A DNA stretch of 42,120 nucleotides from a virus. The stretch spans positions 1-42,120 of the IMG/VR virus record IMGVR_UViG_3300047562_003525. The stretch is one strand, 5' to 3'. A model generated the notes under the pieces. That model was not told the DNA's origin. It saw only the letters and a program-made list of their open reading frames with translations, and ran no database searches. Each line of letters begins with the position of its first letter. The stretch's first letter is position 1. Shown one piece after another: positions 4,137 to 25,386 of the stretch. A program made the position numbers and the translations under genes.

Positions 4137-4694
4137 ATGATGGAAAAACTAAACCGCGAGTTGAATCAAGAAAATCTACAACACAACTACTTCGTCATCA
4201 TGGATGAGATCGCCACTGATACGCTGAAACCTGCGATCGAATGGATCGTAGAGGCTAACTTCTCTCAGCAACGACCAGACGTCTTGACTCTCATCTTATG
4301 CTCACCTGGAGGTGAACTCGACCCGGCGTTTGCGTTGATCGACATGATGAGAGGATCTTCGATCCCCGTGAGGACCATTGGGCTTGGTCAGATCGCATCA
4401 GCGGCGTTGCTTATCTTCATGAGTGGTAAGAAGGGAGAACGCATCCTAACTCCCAACACGAGCGTGATGTCACACCAGTACACGTGGGGAACTTACGGTA
4501 AAGCGCACGAGCTCATGGCCACCGCGAAGCAGTTCGATGTCCTTTCCCAGAAGTTGATCAAACATTACAAGAAGTGCACAGAGCTCGACGAAGAGAAGAT
4601 CCGAAACTACCTCTTGCCTCCTCAAGACGTGTGGCTCAGCGCGCAAGAGTCACTAAAGTTGGGTCTTTGTGACATCGTCAAGGACCTAAAATAA
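4137..4694 (+). CDS. ClpP-like serine protease
   Basis: A 185-residue ClpP-fold peptidase. The catalytic triad is visible: S88 in GQIASAALL, H113 in SVMSHQ (25 residues later, as in E. coli ClpP), and D164 in QDVWLSAQESLKLGLCD. The oxyanion/substrate strand SPGGELD is at residues 56-62. Two adjacent ATGs (4137, 4140) follow AGGGA about nine bases upstream, and the gene starts two bases after the SleB stop. Phage ClpP-like proteins can act as head-maturation proteases or work on host proteins with host Clp ATPases; nothing here decides between these. No head genes lie nearby, which argues weakly against the prohead role. Confidence 0.9.
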   Translation: MMEKLNRELNQENLQHNYFVIMDEIATDTLKPAIEWIVEANFSQQRPDVLTLILCSPGGELDPAFALIDMMRGSSIPVRTIGLGQIASAALLIFMSGKKGERILTPNTSVMSHQYTWGTYGKAHELMATAKQFDVLSQKLIKHYKKCTELDEEKIRNYLLPPQDVWLSAQESLKLGLCDIVKDLK

Positions 4695-7403: not shown

Positions 7404-10400
7404 TCAGAATACGACTGCTCTTCTATCCATATATCGGTTAAGAGCGCTATCTTGGTTTCGTAACGGGACTGGAGCCACTATATTCTGTCGGTTATTAGCT
7501 ACGTTTGTTGTAGCAGCGTTCACGACCACTGGAGCTTGTTGAGCATTTGCATCCATCTTCATCTGGTCATTGCGCACAGACTTATCATAGACATTTTGTG
7601 ATAACCCTGGAAGAGGCGATACTGTGGGTTTAGAAAGTTCTTTGTACTTAGGATCTTTTAATAGATCTGAAGCTTTTGCGTACCCGACGTCTACCTTCCA
7701 TTGATCCCACCGAGTAAGCTTTTGGTAATCTGCGTCTTCCTTTAGTATCTCAACCGACGAACTGATATCTTTCTTTTCGTCTGAAGAATTCTTGAGTAGT
7801 CTAAACGCTCTGTTAGATATTTGAGCACGACCTCTTTCATCTACTTGTAAGCCCGCAGCCTTAAGCTGTTCAGCTGTATCTTTATCAACGGTGAGCGAAG
7901 AGGTTCCAGTTTTAGTATCAAATGCAGCGCTTATTCGTTTAGATGAAGATTCAGATCCTGTAGTTTTTCCTGTTACGTCAGCGGTAGATGTGCTTGTTCT
8001 TTCTCGTTGTATGACTGCTGACCTTTCATCTGTGACCGTAGAAGCAGATCGAGTTACAGTTTTAGAACTAGTACGACCTTCAGGTTCATATGAAGTTGAC
8101 GACGAAACATTAGTATCTGCATTAACTTTAGTCTCATCTTTTCCTGGTCTAAACGGGTAGAATGGTCCGATAGATATCTCTTTGCCTATGAGAGGGATAG
8201 TATACTTAAACTCAGGGATACCAACATACTCAAATATGCCCTTCAGCTGTTCAGGTATCTTTTTGAAGAAATCTACAAGGGGAGAGAAGAACTTATCTAG
8301 AGGCTGCGCGATATACTTGTCGATCATGCCAGTAATCTTGTCGAATAAACTTTTGACTGGATCGATGATGTACTCTTGAGCGATGCCTTCGATGTCTGAA
8401 ACCATGCCCTCTATAGGTTGGACGACAAACTCATTGAATATGCTTTTTAACTTATTAAATAATCCAACCAATGGCTCTAAGACCATCTCTTTGAATAGTT
8501 TACCAAGCGTTGGAGCTTCAGATATCTTCTTGAACTCTTCTTCTCGGCGTTTAACTTCTTCTTCTAAGTTTGCTTCATATTTGGCAGCTTCTTCTTCGGT
8601 CATCTCGCGACCACCCTGAGAGAGGATATTATCCCTAGCTGCTTCCCTATTAAATACCCCATTACTCATCATGGTTGAAGTCATGATATTGCCATTAGCA
8701 TCATAACCTACTGCTCCGACTCTAGCAGCTCCAGAAAAATTTTCTCTTCGGCGTTTAGCTCTATCTAGTTCTTTCTGCGCTTGCTCTTCGCTCTTTCCAA
8801 AACCAAGAAAATTTTTCACAGAACTTATCTTCTCAGAGATCCAATCTCCGATAGAAGAAACCAGGTTGATGACAGAATCTATCGCGCCTTTAAAGATATC
8901 TGTGATGTTTATAGCATCTAATTTCTCTTTTACCTTATCAAACCCAAATAGACCTGCAACCCAAGAAACTGCAGACTTTATCATGTTTGGAACGGTCGAT
9001 AGTAAAGATGCCAGCATATCTGATGCGCTAAAGTTCTTGAATAAGTTAGATACCCAAGTTCCTATCGATCCGATGAAGTTGAATACCCCGTCAACAACTT
9101 TCTTCGTCAAATCTTGAAAAGAAAACGAATCTAGCGCTTTCTCTACTGCGTCAAACCCTAATGCTCCTGCGACCCAAGATATAGCGCTCTTGATTAGATC
9201 CAAGACTCCACCGATAAGGGAGTTAAATAGCCCAGTTATAGCACCCTTGATTGCACCTACTATGCCTTCCTTTTCAAAACCTTCTATGGCTCCTTTAACC
9301 GTATCCCAAACTGCCATTATCACGGTAAGTGGTAAAGCTAGCTTTTCGAAGATAGGTATTACTGCTTTAAATATCTTTGCAAAATCGTCGAGGTAAGATT
9401 TTATAAGGTTGAAAAAACCCTTTACTTTATCTACGACAGAAGTAAAATATTTAACGGCATCAGAAACAAACTTAGAACTACCTTCTAAAACACCGAATGC
9501 TTTCTTAACGTCAGAAAAGAATCCTAATGGGTTTGGGATCCCTTTCGGTATCTTAAGAAGCATATCATCTATGAAAGACATCACCCTAAATGGGATATCA
9601 GAAACAAACTTTCCAAACCTAGAAAGTTGAGTGCTAACTAATTCATCTATAGTATCGATTATCTTTGGTATCTTGGCGATAAACCTATTGAAAGCCTTTT
9701 TTACATCATCTATGGTTTCAAATATAACCGTTCCAACAGATTTCAGTGCTTTCTTTAAATCTGGAAAAGCATCTAAGAATGTATCGATAAACTTAAGTAT
9801 CTTTTTCCCAAAACCTTTAGCGATATCTAAAACAAAATCTGCGGCTTTTAATAGCCCTCTCCCCATGCTGGTTAGGATCTTTACATAACCTTTGACTAAA
9901 CCAGCTATGGCACCAAGAGATACCGCTAAACCCGTTAATATGAAACCAAGCTTTGGTAAACTTAATGAAGAGGATTCTTTCTTTTCGTCTTTATCTCTTT
10001 TAGCAGTATTATCACGTATGTCTTCTAATACTTCTGTCTGTTTGGCTTGTTCCTTTAATGAACTTTCTTCCCTTCTTACGCCTTCGACTTCGTTTTCCCT
10101 TGAGGTTGAAGGGATCGCACTAGAAGAAGATTTATTATCATTGATTTCGATAAGACGATTTATGCCCTTATTTAATGATATCTGAGCATCATCAAGTGTG
10201 GCGAATGTTTGGATTATGCTATCATTTACTTCTTTTAGGCCATTGATGACAGCATCAAGCTGTTCATAGACGGTCATATGAAGGTCAGCGATATTCTTGT
10301 CGATAGAAGCAAGAGAGACGCTAGAGTCTTCTTTTTGAACTTTAACGCTGTCACCTGTATTATCTACGATGAGCTTAAGGTAGCTTTCTTGCTTCTTGAG

Positions 10401-10412
10401 AAGTTGTTCCAT
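7404..10412 (-). CDS. Tail tape measure protein
   Basis: A 1002-residue protein with tape-measure features: a charged coiled-coil N-terminus (1-150), hydrophobic segment (about 152-175), long amphipathic helical region, and a disordered Ser/Thr-rich C-terminal part. A duplicated unit is visible: SAISWVAGALGFD (from 409) and SAVSWVAGLFGFD (from 480) lie 71 residues apart, each followed by similar helices. No lysozyme motif is seen. By the usual rule of about 0.15 nm per residue this would correspond to a tail near 150 nm (inference). It is the functional counterpart of T4 gp29 and is last in the leftward operon, right after gp26 and its -1 frame. Confidence 0.85.
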   Translation of the reverse strand: MEQLLKKQESYLKLIVDNTGDSVKVQKEDSSVSLASIDKNIADLHMTVYEQLDAVINGLKEVNDSIIQTFATLDDAQISLNKGINRLIEINDNKSSSSAIPSTSRENEVEGVRREESSLKEQAKQTEVLEDIRDNTAKRDKDEKKESSSLSLPKLGFILTGLAVSLGAIAGLVKGYVKILTSMGRGLLKAADFVLDIAKGFGKKILKFIDTFLDAFPDLKKALKSVGTVIFETIDDVKKAFNRFIAKIPKIIDTIDELVSTQLSRFGKFVSDIPFRVMSFIDDMLLKIPKGIPNPLGFFSDVKKAFGVLEGSSKFVSDAVKYFTSVVDKVKGFFNLIKSYLDDFAKIFKAVIPIFEKLALPLTVIMAVWDTVKGAIEGFEKEGIVGAIKGAITGLFNSLIGGVLDLIKSAISWVAGALGFDAVEKALDSFSFQDLTKKVVDGVFNFIGSIGTWVSNLFKNFSASDMLASLLSTVPNMIKSAVSWVAGLFGFDKVKEKLDAINITDIFKGAIDSVINLVSSIGDWISEKISSVKNFLGFGKSEEQAQKELDRAKRRRENFSGAARVGAVGYDANGNIMTSTMMSNGVFNREAARDNILSQGGREMTEEEAAKYEANLEEEVKRREEEFKKISEAPTLGKLFKEMVLEPLVGLFNKLKSIFNEFVVQPIEGMVSDIEGIAQEYIIDPVKSLFDKITGMIDKYIAQPLDKFFSPLVDFFKKIPEQLKGIFEYVGIPEFKYTIPLIGKEISIGPFYPFRPGKDETKVNADTNVSSSTSYEPEGRTSSKTVTRSASTVTDERSAVIQRERTSTSTADVTGKTTGSESSSKRISAAFDTKTGTSSLTVDKDTAEQLKAAGLQVDERGRAQISNRAFRLLKNSSDEKKDISSSVEILKEDADYQKLTRWDQWKVDVGYAKASDLLKDPKYKELSKPTVSPLPGLSQNVYDKSVRNDQMKMDANAQQAPVVVNAATTNVANNRQNIVAPVPLRNQDSALNRYMDRRAVVF

Positions 10413-10414
10413 CT

Positions 10415-10594
10415 TTATCTCTTTTCCATCTTTTGTTTTTCTTCTTCGAGATGCTTTATTAACAGAGTTACATAAATTTCCCTCTCAAATGGAATCATAT
10501 TCTCTATATCACGCAAACTGTATTTATGATATTGCATCAAGGCAAAGTTTGAAGTGTAGTGGTTAGATAGGCTTTCATGTGAGAGGGCTATCAG
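10415..10594 (-). CDS. -1 frame extension of gp26 (tail assembly chaperone GT-like domain)
   Basis: Directly after the slippery site at the end of gp26, the -1 frame is open for 59 codons (LIALSHESLS...). It includes FALMQYHKYSLRDIENMIPFE in two parts: an aromatic/His segment and a D/E-rich helix start, similar in pattern to the second chaperone frame of many tailed phages (HYHW...ei..mp..er). It stops two bases before the tape-measure ATG. An internal ATG (10537) would give a 40-aa protein but has no Shine-Dalgarno sequence, which favours production by frameshifting as a 295-aa gp26 fusion. The frame is too short to appear in ordinary ORF lists. Seen: open frame and slip site; inferred: expression mode. 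Confidence 0.65.
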   Translation of the reverse strand: MIALSHESLSNHYTSNFALMQYHKYSLRDIENMIPFEREIYVTLLIKHLEEEKQKMEKR

Positions 10595-11301
10595 AAAAAA
10601 TTCTCAAGTCCTCTTAAGACGTGAGTGTGGTTGAAGCTACATACAGGACATTTCCATTTGACTGTATGCTCTAACTTAGGCATGGTTTCAAAGAAACTCT
10701 GGATCTTCGCAAACTGCTCTTGTGTTAGGTTGTTGATGAAGTTCTCGAGTTCCTCTTTACTTTGATCGATCGCAGGGTATACTTGATCTTCGTCATAGAT
10801 CGAATCGATGCATGACATGATAACCTCAAAGATAGACTCGACACTGTTCTCGTTGCCTCTAACTTTACTAGCGAGTGAGAAGCTTGGATACTTCATCTTG
10901 ACGCCAACTTCACCAAATAGCTTGATGTTAGCACTATGACCTTCATCAAACTGGACGTCGATCTTCGTGATGTCGAGTGAATACTTGTACTTAGCTTTTG
11001 GATCCTTGCACTCATTGCATGAGAACAATAGTTCACTGATTTCTCCGACAGATTTGCCTCTGAGTTGAAGGAAGATGTATTCGATATCAAACAACGCAAG
11101 CTTATCGGGATCTACCTTATCTAAGATGCATGACTTGATGATTTCTTTTGTCGTGTTAAGCATCACCTTTTCATCTTCGCTCTGCTGAGCGATCATCAAC
11201 GCCTTCTCTTCCTTCACGAGGAATGGTCTATACTTTACCGTTTTCTTGGTAGAAGGGATCGTGAGTTCGTAGATAGGAGTGTTTAGTACTGGTAACGGCA
11301 T
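10591..11301 (-). CDS. 26: gp26-like baseplate hub / tail assembly protein
   Basis: A 236-residue member of the T4 baseplate gp26 family; the signature KYRPFLVKEEKALMIAQ is at residues 23-39, and a conserved C-terminal CPVC...H region follows. Two cysteine pairs (C95/C98 and C218/C221) with nearby histidines could bind zinc. In T4, gp26 is required for hub assembly. Here the gene lies immediately upstream of the tape measure and ends on a -1 slippery heptamer, the position and form of lambda gpG, so it is likely a tail assembly chaperone as well. ATG 11301 overlaps the gp16-like stop by one base. Confidence 0.85.
   Translation of the reverse strand: MPLPVLNTPIYELTIPSTKKTVKYRPFLVKEEKALMIAQQSEDEKVMLNTTKEIIKSCILDKVDPDKLALFDIEYIFLQLRGKSVGEISELLFSCNECKDPKAKYKYSLDITKIDVQFDEGHSANIKLFGEVGVKMKYPSFSLASKVRGNENSVESIFEVIMSCIDSIYDEDQVYPAIDQSKEELENFINNLTQEQFAKIQSFFETMPKLEHTVKWKCPVCSFNHTHVLRGLENFF
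10594..10600 (-). promoter_or_regulatory. Programmed -1 ribosomal frameshift slippery site, U UUU UUC
   Basis: In the minus-strand mRNA, gp26 ends AAU UUU UUC UGA. The heptamer U UUU UUC (10600 down to 10594) has the X XXY YYZ form; both tRNA-Phe can re-pair after slipping back one base, and the zero-frame stop follows immediately, which is known to favour shifting at several sites. A weak 5-bp stem GATAG/CTATC (10566-10592) starts just after it and is not convincing as a stimulator by itself. Confidence 0.65.
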
Positions 11302-11720
11302 TATGATTCACCTCTCTTGGTTTTATTAAGCATATTCAACAATTCTGTAGTGCTTCCAACAAATATTGCATTGTTGTTGATGGTTTTCGCAGGATCTTCC
11401 TTCTCTTTAGGCTTAAGAAGGTTCTTCTTAGCTTGAAGGTCGATCAGCTGGTGGTTTATATCTGAGAGGTTTTTCATGAGACCTCCCACAACTTCAAAGG
11501 CTCTTGGGTGTTCTGAAGATTTTGCTACCTCAAGAGCATGCTCTAGTGCGCTAGATCCATCTTTTAAGATATTATAAAGGTTACTACGTACGACTTTGAA
11601 GTCAGCTTCGTCTTCTTCTGACATAGCCGCTTCAGGCTTTGAAGTAGAAACGTCAACGATTTCACCTTTTGAGATGGGTTCTACTTCAAATATCTCGCTT
11701 AACTTTTCATCTATCTTCAT
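11301..11720 (-). CDS. 16: gp16-like small terminase subunit
   Basis: A 139-residue helical protein with the T4 small terminase pattern: NLYNILKDGSSALEHALEVAKSSEHPRAFEVVGGLM (residues about 47-82) followed by a helix LIDLQAKKNLL. The family forms rings that recognise and feed DNA to the large terminase gp17, which is not in this window. It is slightly shorter than T4 gp16 (164 aa). Start overlaps the previous gene's stop as ATGA and its own stop overlaps the gp26 start by one base, so it is embedded in the late leftward operon. Confidence 0.75.
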   Translation of the reverse strand: MKIDEKLSEIFEVEPISKGEIVDVSTSKPEAAMSEEDEADFKVVRSNLYNILKDGSSALEHALEVAKSSEHPRAFEVVGGLMKNLSDINHQLIDLQAKKNLLKPKEKEDPAKTINNNAIFVGSTTELLNMLNKTKRGES

Positions 11721-12439
11721 GTCGTCAATGCACCATTCCCCACAAATTCATTTGACCTATCAGCTGTGGCAAAATTATCTGAATCTTGAATGTTTTGTTG
11801 ATTTTCAGAGTAATTAGTGGTCACAAAGTTATTAGGCTGACTTCCGAATGTATCTATAGTACGCTGAGAAGTTTCTGGTTCTATACCACCAAGTTTATTT
11901 ATGCCCATAGTATCAATGGTGTAGAATTGGTATGTCATGTCGACTGTTAAGCGCATGACATCTTTTCCATTATAATCTAACTGTATCGCCCCTAACCCCT
12001 TTGGATAGCACCTATTCAATACTATCTGGTATCTAGCATCTTCTTGCATGTCATAAACTATGATCGGTATCTTATCAACGAGGTAATCTTCGGCGTAACG
12101 GAAATCACGAGTTTCTTTATTTTGGATAACGTCGATCCAATCATCGAAGAAGGTCTTGACATACATTGAACCATCAACGTAAAAGTTCATAGAGACTTGT
12201 CCATATAACTTTTCATATGGAACTTCTCGAAATTCTCCGTAGCTTCTAACTTGATTAGACGAATAAGTAACTCCTGGCATCGTAACCTGCTCACAGAAGG
12301 CAGTTATCATATTCATGTTACTTGTGTAGATTATCCTTCTTCCTTGAAGACCTTTTGGGATAGTTAGTTGGACGAGGAAGTGTGATGTTCTCGCCATCCC
12401 GTTTTTCATGTATGATTTAAAATCATTTAGTGAAGCCAT
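11717..12439 (-). CDS. Tail-tube-fold protein, probable gp54-like tube initiator
   Basis: A 240-residue protein of the gp19/gp54 tail-tube family: N-terminal FKSYMKNGMARTSHFLVQLTIP, central SYGEFREVPYEKLYGQVSMNFYVD and C-terminal VDMTYQFYTIDTMG correspond to the strands that stack in tube rings. It is longer than the tube protein gp19 (163 aa) and shorter than T4 gp54 (320 aa). Because it lies near baseplate genes (gp48, gp53, gp27), gp54, the first tube ring on the baseplate, is more likely than gp19. The C-terminal 50 residues are polar and Asn/Gln-rich. It overlaps the upstream gene by 13 bases. Confidence 0.6.
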   Translation of the reverse strand: MASLNDFKSYMKNGMARTSHFLVQLTIPKGLQGRRIIYTSNMNMITAFCEQVTMPGVTYSSNQVRSYGEFREVPYEKLYGQVSMNFYVDGSMYVKTFFDDWIDVIQNKETRDFRYAEDYLVDKIPIIVYDMQEDARYQIVLNRCYPKGLGAIQLDYNGKDVMRLTVDMTYQFYTIDTMGINKLGGIEPETSQRTIDTFGSQPNNFVTTNYSENQQNIQDSDNFATADRSNEFVGNGALTT

Positions 12440-22572: not shown

Positions 22573-25386
22573 ATGAGCGTAAATCTACTCCCGATCCTAT
22601 TTAAGAGACAGATACCAGAACACATAAAGTCTGCGTATCCGCTCTTTGTCGACTTCTTGAAAGCGTATCAAGAGTTTCTAAGTCAAACTCAAGCTCAAGA
22701 GCTAGAAAAGTTTCGCGATATAGACACAGTCACAGAGGAGTTTGTCGAAAGGTTTAAGGCTGAGTTAGCTTACAACATCCCTCTTGACGACCTTCAAGAT
22801 AAGAGGATGTTTCTCAAGAACCTTCGAGAGTTTTATCTTTCTCGAGGAAGTGAAGCTTCATACAAATTCATATTCAAAACTTTCTTCAATAAAGACGTTG
22901 AGATATTCTATCCATCGCGACAGATGCTTAGGGTATCTGATGGAAAATGGAAACAAGACGTATCTATATTCGTGCAGAATACTTCATCAACAGCTCCTTC
23001 GTTGTTTCCCCTTAGTGGCAATTATATATCGATAGATTCTGGAGGAAAGAGATTAACTAGTTACGTAGAAGACGTAGTTCAATACTCAAATAATATATTT
23101 GAAGTTTTCATCCAGAGAGATATCGTCAAATCCATAGTAGTTGGAGCAACGATATCATATGTTGAAGATGGGATAACGTATAGTGGTAATGTGCTTCTTA
23201 CTCCTAGATCTATCAAGGTTCTTAGACCTGGAAAAGGATTTAGAGTCGGAGATATATTTAATTTAAGAACAAATACTGGTGAAGGTTGCAAGATCAAGGT
23301 TACACAGGTTGATGGTAATGGTGGTATAATAAAAGCTAAGATACTTAAGTTTTCTCTGGATTATAGCGCTAACTTTTGGTCGTATCTGAATGCTAAAGAT
23401 GGAGCAGTTATTCCCCCTCAAGGATTTTCACAATCTGGAAATATACAAACTCTTACTATATTTGATTTACTGTCACAAAATATAAATGAGTCTGGATTTA
23501 TATCTAGACAAAATTATATGTTTTATGATACTAATATTCCAACTGGGAGTGAAGCGCAAGGAGCTAATCGATTTTTCGCAGACACAACTTATGTAGGTCA
23601 AGTCGATTCACAGATTTATGCAGACAACTTAATCGAATATAACCCTGAAGATCTAGCTCTCATAGAAGTTCAAGTGGGAGCATGTTCGATATATTCTGGC
23701 TACTATCTAGCTCAAGATGGTTTTATATCTGATGAAATTTATATCCAAGATAGTAACTATTACCAGGCATTTTCATACGTCATTAAAGTCGAAGAAGAAC
23801 TTAGAAAATATGCTGATTTAGTAAAAACTATACTTCATCCAGCCGGCATGAAGATGTTTGCTGAATTTCAGATATACAACAACATCAATATATCAGCAAC
23901 TTCTATCTTTAAAAATAGAGTTATCCAGATATCAGATTCATTTCCTACCTTTAATCAGGGCATTGCGTATAGCGACTATGATGTAACGTATGACGCAAAT
24001 GACGTTTTTGTACATACGCCGAAGGCTGGAGCAAGTATAATTTTAACCCCATTTAATACTCTTGCTCATATTCTAGGAAAGAGAGTTTATTCACCGACGA
24101 CTGCATCTACTGTTGATATAGTTAAATTTTTTATTAAGTCTATATCAGTGTCTTATTCGATCGATGAAATTTATCCAGTCAAGTTAGTAGAGAAGCCATT
24201 TGCTGAAACTTCTTTAATTGAATCAAACGCTACTAAGTTAGTAGAGAAGCCATTCGCTGAAACTCCAGCCATCGGATCAAGCAACGTCAAGTTAGTAGAG
24301 AAGCCATTCGCTGAAACTCCAGCCATCGGATCAAGCAACGTCAAGTTAGTAGAGAAGCCATTCAACGAGTCATACGTTACTAATTCAAACGCTACTAAAT
24401 TAGTAGAGAAAGATTCATTTGATGAATCTCAACCAATTGCGTCAAGTAATACCAAGTTAGTAGAAAAACCATTCACTGAAACTCCAGCTATCGGATCAAG
24501 TAATACCAAATTGATAGATAAAGAGTCATTCAATGAATCTCAACCAATTGAGTCTAGCAGTGTCAAGTTAGTAGAGAAAGATTCATTTGATGAATCTCAA
24601 CCAATTGCGTCAAGTAATACCAAGTTAGTAGAAAAACCATTCACTGAAACTTTACCAATAGGGTCTATCACTAATAAAAATTTAGATAAAGCCTTAATCA
24701 ATGAAATACTGAGTATCTCTTCTATTCCAACTAAACTGTTTCATACAGGTTTTACTTCTTCGATAAGTACAACATCTTTATTGCTTGAATACACGGCGAT
24801 TAAACAAATATCTTCTCCGTATAGCTTTAATTCAGCTACGCCGGCATTAAATATTCAATGTCAACCGATAAATTCATCTTACTCTGTAATAGATAGTTCA
24901 ATAATTTTTCCGAGACTTATCGTAAATGAGCCGTTGTTAATATCGAGTCTTTCAAATAATTCATACCAAAGAGCTCTATTGCAGCTGAGTGTGACTGTAA
25001 GTTCTTCTAACAGTGAGAAGATAGAGAAGACTGTGAGTTCTCAATCTAATATATCAGATGTTAATTCATTAAATTTCACTAGAGGTATAGTAAATGAAGC
25101 TGTCATATTGGACGATCAATTTACTTACGTATTTGGACCAGTACGAGAATTTTCTAGCCAAGTTAGTTTGGCTAGTACTATAAATAACAAAGATGCAGCT
25201 AAAACGCTGCCTCAACTAACGATAACCACTTCGTCGACTATAACTTCAAGACAACAAAGTAAAACCATGTCTAGTGAAGCTTCTGTCGATGATTCAGGAG
25301 TTCTGAAATTGAATTCGTATGACTCAGGTGATTATTTTTACCCCAACGCAATCGATTATCAGAGTGATATCATCTCAATAACTTAA
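22573..25386 (+). CDS. Large baseplate wedge protein (gp7 position) with tandem repeats
   Basis: A 937-residue protein beginning immediately after gp6. The N-terminus (LPILFKRQIPEHIKSAYPLF, FLKNLREFYLSRGSEASYKF) is the conserved start of a virion protein found after gp6 in T4-like environmental phages. In T4 this position is held by gp7 (1032 aa), which bridges the wedge, but direct homology is not proven here. Residues about 537-701 are nine tandem 18/19-residue units starting KLVEKPF or KLVEKDSF; the following 235 residues are Ser/Thr-rich and lower in complexity. The first 420 residues look like ordinary baseplate domains. The C-terminus resembles an extended adhesin or fibre stalk more than a wedge. 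Confidence 0.75.
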   Translation: MSVNLLPILFKRQIPEHIKSAYPLFVDFLKAYQEFLSQTQAQELEKFRDIDTVTEEFVERFKAELAYNIPLDDLQDKRMFLKNLREFYLSRGSEASYKFIFKTFFNKDVEIFYPSRQMLRVSDGKWKQDVSIFVQNTSSTAPSLFPLSGNYISIDSGGKRLTSYVEDVVQYSNNIFEVFIQRDIVKSIVVGATISYVEDGITYSGNVLLTPRSIKVLRPGKGFRVGDIFNLRTNTGEGCKIKVTQVDGNGGIIKAKILKFSLDYSANFWSYLNAKDGAVIPPQGFSQSGNIQTLTIFDLLSQNINESGFISRQNYMFYDTNIPTGSEAQGANRFFADTTYVGQVDSQIYADNLIEYNPEDLALIEVQVGACSIYSGYYLAQDGFISDEIYIQDSNYYQAFSYVIKVEEELRKYADLVKTILHPAGMKMFAEFQIYNNINISATSIFKNRVIQISDSFPTFNQGIAYSDYDVTYDANDVFVHTPKAGASIILTPFNTLAHILGKRVYSPTTASTVDIVKFFIKSISVSYSIDEIYPVKLVEKPFAETSLIESNATKLVEKPFAETPAIGSSNVKLVEKPFAETPAIGSSNVKLVEKPFNESYVTNSNATKLVEKDSFDESQPIASSNTKLVEKPFTETPAIGSSNTKLIDKESFNESQPIESSSVKLVEKDSFDESQPIASSNTKLVEKPFTETLPIGSITNKNLDKALINEILSISSIPTKLFHTGFTSSISTTSLLLEYTAIKQISSPYSFNSATPALNIQCQPINSSYSVIDSSIIFPRLIVNEPLLISSLSNNSYQRALLQLSVTVSSSNSEKIEKTVSSQSNISDVNSLNFTRGIVNEAVILDDQFTYVFGPVREFSSQVSLASTINNKDAAKTLPQLTITTSSTITSRQQSKTMSSEASVDDSGVLKLNSYDSGDYFYPNAIDYQSDIISIT
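24181..24675 (+). repeat. Nine tandem 54/57-bp coding repeats
   Basis: Units start at 24181, 24235, 24289, 24343, 24397, 24454, 24508, 24565 and 24622, encoding KLVEKPFAETPAIGSSNV and variants. Unit length is 54 bp, except units 5, 7 and 8 (57 bp, KLVEKDSFDESQPIASSNT type). Units 2 and 3 are identical in sequence, and the unit 5-6 pair is nearly identical to the unit 8-9 pair over its first part, showing recent duplication of both one and two units. Two degenerate copies follow. Confidence 0.95.
25179..25186 (+). promoter_or_regulatory. Possible internal late promoter, TATAAATA
   Basis: An exact T4 late -10 octamer lies inside the 3' end of the gp7-position gene, 211 bases before the next ATG. 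It could give extra transcripts of the small virion gene at 25397, but it is inside AT-rich coding sequence where the octamer can occur by chance. Confidence 0.3.

Follow-up and report, generated by a model that had tools for sequence, protein, structure and literature searches.

Is the open reading frame between gene 26 and the tape measure gene of T4-type phages a gene of its own, or is it reached from gene 26 by a programmed -1 frameshift, as in the G and GT tail assembly chaperones of phage lambda? The question was raised by the window analysed here, a stretch of 42,120 nt (IMG/VR record IMGVR_UViG_3300047562_003525) that is a fragment of an uncultured T4-type phage. A sequence-only reading of this window had proposed to equate gp26 with gpG and to place genes 26 and 51, usually described as separate hub assembly factors, in a G/GT scheme.

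Organisation of the gene 26 junction

The gene 26 homologue occupies positions 10591 to 11301 of the minus strand, stop codon TGA included, and encodes a protein of 236 aa, the candidate short chaperone form (G or TAC-N). This protein belongs to PF12322 (T4_baseplate), with an E value of 1.4e-67 and 228 bits against a Pfam gathering score of 24.5, and matches PHROG_150 (baseplate hub; E 4.1e-74); the closest isolate or single-cell record shares 46% identity with it. The 3' end of the gene reads GAG AAT TTT TTC TGA, and the slippery heptamer T TTT TTC (10594 to 10600) directly precedes the 0 frame stop codon TGA (10591 to 10593), exactly as the sequence-only reading had stated. Just upstream of the heptamer, the -1 frame contains a TGA stop codon (10604 to 10606), so that a productive shift is confined by the two stop codons to about 13 nt (10603-10591), with the heptamer inside. 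The -1 frame extension, the predicted T or TAC-C domain, spans positions 10415 to 10594 of the minus strand and consists of 59 codons, which after the slip would be 10594-10418 (peptide LIALSHESL...EKQKMEKR), followed by a TAA stop codon at 10417-10415. The ATG of the tape measure gene (7404 to 10412, minus strand; 1002 aa; PHROG_305, E 2.9e-13; PHROG_58, E 6.9e-12) is located at 10412, 2 nt beyond the stop codon of the extension. Both this arrangement and the absence of a Shine-Dalgarno (SD) sequence ahead of the internal ATG of the -1 frame (10535 to 10537) had been correctly read from the sequence.

The order of genes on the minus strand, starting at 11304-12439, is tail tube-like gene, small terminase gene, gene 26, extension and tape measure gene. 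This is a lambda-like tube-chaperone-tape order into which a terminase gene is inserted. Elsewhere, the window contains a gene of the ClpP-like protease/head maturation protease family (4137-4694) and encodes a structural protein of 937 aa (22573-25386) with tandem repeats of approximately 18-19 residues (KLVEKPFAETPAIGSSN...).

A structure model of gp26 was obtained with a pLDDT of 89.7. The first match of this model to the PDB in a Foldseek search was the HK97 tail assembly chaperone 2ob9, which is a weak match (E 1.0). Over the first ~90 residues, VIA-align returned Z scores of 7.5 (3fgx), 7.4 (2ob9), 7.2 (3klu, YqbN) and 5.2 (5ir0), followed by an unrelated match with a Z score of 2.5. HK97 gp13 and YqbN are thus within the top three PDB matches of the N-terminal part, at a Z score of about 7.4 that is middling, and the model is suggestive of an HK97 gp13-type chaperone fold for the N-terminal domain. 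Comparison of the gp26 profile with the sequences of solved structures gave no match. In a BFVD search, most matches were to hub proteins of the T4 type and to phage proteins without a name, a result that is consistent but not independent evidence.

Conservation of the slip site and selection on the -1 frame

A Markov model of this region gives a probability of about 0.005 for a 59-codon open frame by chance, and the window has a second in-frame T TTT TTC, within the tape measure gene. Given this modest chance value and the second occurrence, the single sequence is only suggestive. The comparison with relatives that the sequence-only reading had suggested is decisive; it covered 133 distinct gp26 junctions of 180 nt, taken from IMG/VR and from annotated phages. 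In 126 of the 133 junctions, gene 26 ends with T TTT TTN and an open, homologous -1 extension follows, and since both are shared to this extent, their association is beyond chance; the remaining seven are Ackermannviridae-type loci and that of Vibrio phage K448, for which no relatives were found among viral contigs when it was used as the query. Where the contig allows, the -1 frame of the relatives is open for about 50-68 codons. All 100 representatives with less than 85% identity have TTT as the first Phe codon, preceded by a codon that ends in T (AGT, AAT, TCT, GAT, GCT or GGT). Compared with the codon usage of the same genes, log10 P is -17.9 for the T-ending codon and -14.4 for the TTT codon when sequences are treated as independent, and both values are overstated because the representatives share ancestry. 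At the loci L038, L040-L042, L130, L146 and L150, the heptamer is situated eight codons ahead of the gene 26 stop; the short form gains an 8-residue tail of its own there, and the SD-like element described below is weak.

The extension is, by codon comparisons, under strong purifying selection in the -1 frame only. Across 399 pairs, the -1 reading gave a pN/pS of 0.082, whereas the 0 and +1 readings gave 0.85 and 3.24, respectively. When only the 18 codons that follow the slip were counted, the -1 frame value was 0.108, and with only the first 6 it was 0.123, which indicates that the peptide is selected from the slip onwards, before any common candidate start codon. That the open frame beside the T run is a chance product without function, for which the chance value and the further T TTT TTC in the window could be invoked, is refuted by the 126 of 133 conserved junctions and the pN/pS of 0.08, and can be given practically no weight.

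The extension might instead be a stand-alone small gp51 that is translated from an internal start or through coupling with termination of gp26, and it is annotated as a separate gene in many records, among them those of S-ShM2, P-SSM2, HTVC008M and phiM9; in the window, ATG 10537 is present. However, the annotated 'gp51' starts differ between records, as expected if the extension has no start codon, and the residues ahead of ATG 10537 are conserved, which argues against this codon as the start of a gene. In the -1 frame of the window, the stretch from the upstream TGA (10606-10604) to the 18th codon after the slip contains no ATG, GTG or TTG, and a start codon of these three types within reach is absent in 29 of the 100 representatives. 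An ATG with a fair SD sequence was present in the -1 frame of only one of the 100, in agreement with the sequence-only reading, according to which a gene with a good ribosome binding site of its own would speak against the frameshift. A gene starting at ATG 10537 or elsewhere was thus ruled out for want of a conserved start or SD sequence. Translation as a separate gene would also leave the codons under purifying selection between the slip and residue 18 (pN/pS 0.11) without a shared start ahead of them and the invariant heptamer unexplained, and the same domain is fused in frame in T4-type gp51; this alternative is very improbable. The second frame could also be generated by slippage of RNA polymerase rather than of the ribosome, since the T run comprises six residues in the window and up to eight in relatives with AGT TTT TTT TAA. 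A T6 run broken by a C is short for slippage of bacterial polymerases, though, and the retained codon phase of T TTT TTN and the fixed spacing of the SD-like element fit a ribosomal mechanism, so that polymerase slippage seems less probable still.

Predicted frameshift and its putative stimulators

Programmed -1 frameshifting is thus the strongly favoured reading: in the window phage it very probably yields gp26 of 236 aa and a fusion of 295 aa. The majority of ribosomes would terminate at the TGA at 10593 and release gp26, the G or TAC-N form, while a minority would slip by -1 on T TTT TTC, where two Phe-tRNAs would re-pair on TTT TTT, and would synthesize the 295-aa fusion (GT or TAC-NC). 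The slip is probably aided by an upstream SD-like element and by the adjoining stop codon. In E. coli, U_UUU_UUA and U_UUU_UUU are far less shift-prone than A_AAA_AAG (Atkins et al. 2016, PMC5009743), and the frameshift efficiency may therefore be low. We infer that the shift occurs in the window phage and that its products act as chaperones. On the lambda model, gp26 itself would coat the unfolded tape measure protein, whose gene follows immediately downstream, and the extension would recruit tail tube subunits.

The putative stimulator in the window is an SD-like AAGAGGA (10609 to 10615, minus strand), which precedes the heptamer by 8 nt and has an anti-SD pairing energy of -5.8 kcal/mol. 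Across the family, a purine stretch, typically GAG GGA, is found 7-9 nt upstream of the heptamer, and the mean pairing energy is about -6.8 kcal/mol, as compared to roughly 0 to -2.5 in windows farther upstream. Synonymous resampling gave an expected value of -5.04 for the family against -6.90 observed; for the subgroup of the window, in which the stop codon adjoins the heptamer, the corresponding values were -5.11 and -6.89 (n=30, p 4e-6). The element of the window itself showed no excess over its synonymous alternatives (-5.8 vs -5.65). A stable downstream hairpin was not found in the window (z 0.14) or in its subgroup (mean z -0.4), in contrast to the subgroup in which a single codon separates the stop from the heptamer, which has a downstream hairpin with a mean z of -1.74. 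In the latter subgroup, the covariation score of the hairpin was 0.277, as compared to 0.156 for shuffles and at most 0.164 for slid controls, a signal to be read with the caveat that the hairpin region also codes in the -1 frame. At loci such as L094, L095 and L098, in which the heptamer is followed by one codon and the stop, a covarying hairpin of 11 bp starts approximately 5 nt past the heptamer.

There are parallels with E. coli dnaX, which also has an SD-like element, some 8-10 nt upstream of its heptamer. Its downstream hairpin is matched in those relatives whose stop codon lies one codon past the heptamer, and its heptamer is of the A type, whereas the window has a U-type heptamer with an adjoining stop codon and belongs to the subgroup without a hairpin.

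Loci with a different gene 26 end were also observed. Ackermannviridae (L065 2780-2970; L166, L208, L209 and L210) carry a single PF12322 gene, followed by a conserved and homologous -1 extension (LIFEIDLLSYFVMCDELK...). At the end of gene 26 in these loci, no X XXY YYZ heptamer was found, and a conserved [A/G]TT TTC AT[T/C] precedes the gene 26 stop; they may shift in another way, perhaps on the conserved RTTTTC. Vibrio phages K448 and K364 (L068 and L211) equally have no heptamer, and CTT TTY is followed by TAATG at the gene 26 stop, so that either stop-start coupling or a P-site slip is possible. It is tentatively proposed that the set of stimulators is clade-specific, with the SD-like element in both main groups, the covarying hairpin in one of them and a different shift in Ackermannviridae; at present, this is rather a possibility than the expected outcome. 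Such clade-specific stimulators would be ready natural variants for frameshift assays.

Relationship to T4 genes 26 and 51

The extension matched PHROG_634 (baseplate hub assembly catalyst) with an E value of 1.8e-26, a favourable outcome of the profile search that the sequence-only reading had suggested, with matches of the gp51 type. It also matched the last ~50 positions of PHROG_150, a family profile spanned almost completely by T4 gp51, and PF12322 covers T4 gp26 as well as residues 1-201 of T4 gp51. Judged by these profile matches, the extension corresponds to the C-terminus of T4 gp51. The gp26 of the window is homologous to T4 gp26 (hhalign E 3.2e-24), and a profile of in silico G+T fusions aligned with gp51 over 242 columns, i.e., nearly all, with an E value of 4.5e-22. 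The T4 genes 26 and 51 lie apart and in divergent orientation; T4 gene 26 has neither slip site nor extension, and T4 gp51 ends in the extension domain. By homology, T4 gp51 is then a gp26-like domain and the extension fused in frame, with gp26 as G and gp51 as a fixed GT form, and the proposed equivalence of gp26 and gpG holds on these grounds.

Two PF12322 genes were found in JSE, 50AhydR13PP and Acj61, and one in each of the 15 remaining records that were searched. Among the records searched, those with the slip site all have a single PF12322 copy, the window being a 42-kb fragment. On this distribution, T4-type phages appear to have swapped the frameshift for a second, permanently fused copy, and the direction of this change is suggested by the widespread occurrence of the slip version. 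In Campylobacter phage CJLB-13 (L069), the extension domain ends a single open frame of 246 aa that resembles T4 gp51, and this phage apparently represents another lineage with a fixed fusion.

In lambda, too, gpG is the short product and gpGT the longer one made by a -1 frameshift, and their coding region immediately precedes that of the tape measure; the gp26 of the window is larger and has Cys-x-x-Cys motifs. The slip sequence of lambda differs from T TTT TTC. T4 was listed as an exception to G-T frameshifting (Atkins et al. 2016, PMC5009743). According to two later articles that cite it, the study of Vladimirov, Gautam & Davidson (Virology 2022, 566:9-15) identified these genes as those of the tail assembly chaperones in T4-like phages (PMC10885494, PMC12846349). 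One of the two attributes to Vladimirov et al. 2022 the polyT slip sites found within TAC-N genes of T4-like phages (PMC12846349), and the other states that some T4-like phages have one short and one fused long gene in place of frameshifting (PMC10885494). As far as these accounts go, the T4-like chaperone genes described in 2022 are of the same family, with short and long forms and frameshifting in several groups, and the window differs as an uncultured member. The abstract of the 2022 study is said to name genes 26 and 51 and to report frameshifting as conserved in several T4-like groups.

The frameshift principle for T4-like phages was thus already published in 2022, and the locus of the window is a new member; the finding made in the window is right yet, going by the accounts of the 2022 proposal for T4-like tail chaperones, anticipated. 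The SD-like element, the clade-dependent hairpin and the -1 extension of Ackermannviridae without a standard heptamer may be details that have not been described. With these data on uncultured phages, the window adds strong comparative support to the idea, put forward in 2022, of a lambda-type two-form chaperone in T4-type phages. The truncated 'baseplate hub assembly catalyst' gene of many records, with its arbitrary starts, should be reannotated as the frameshifted extension of gene 26. In T4, gp51 is an essential hub protein whose function was long called unknown (PMC3004832), and the two-form chaperone reading would explain it.
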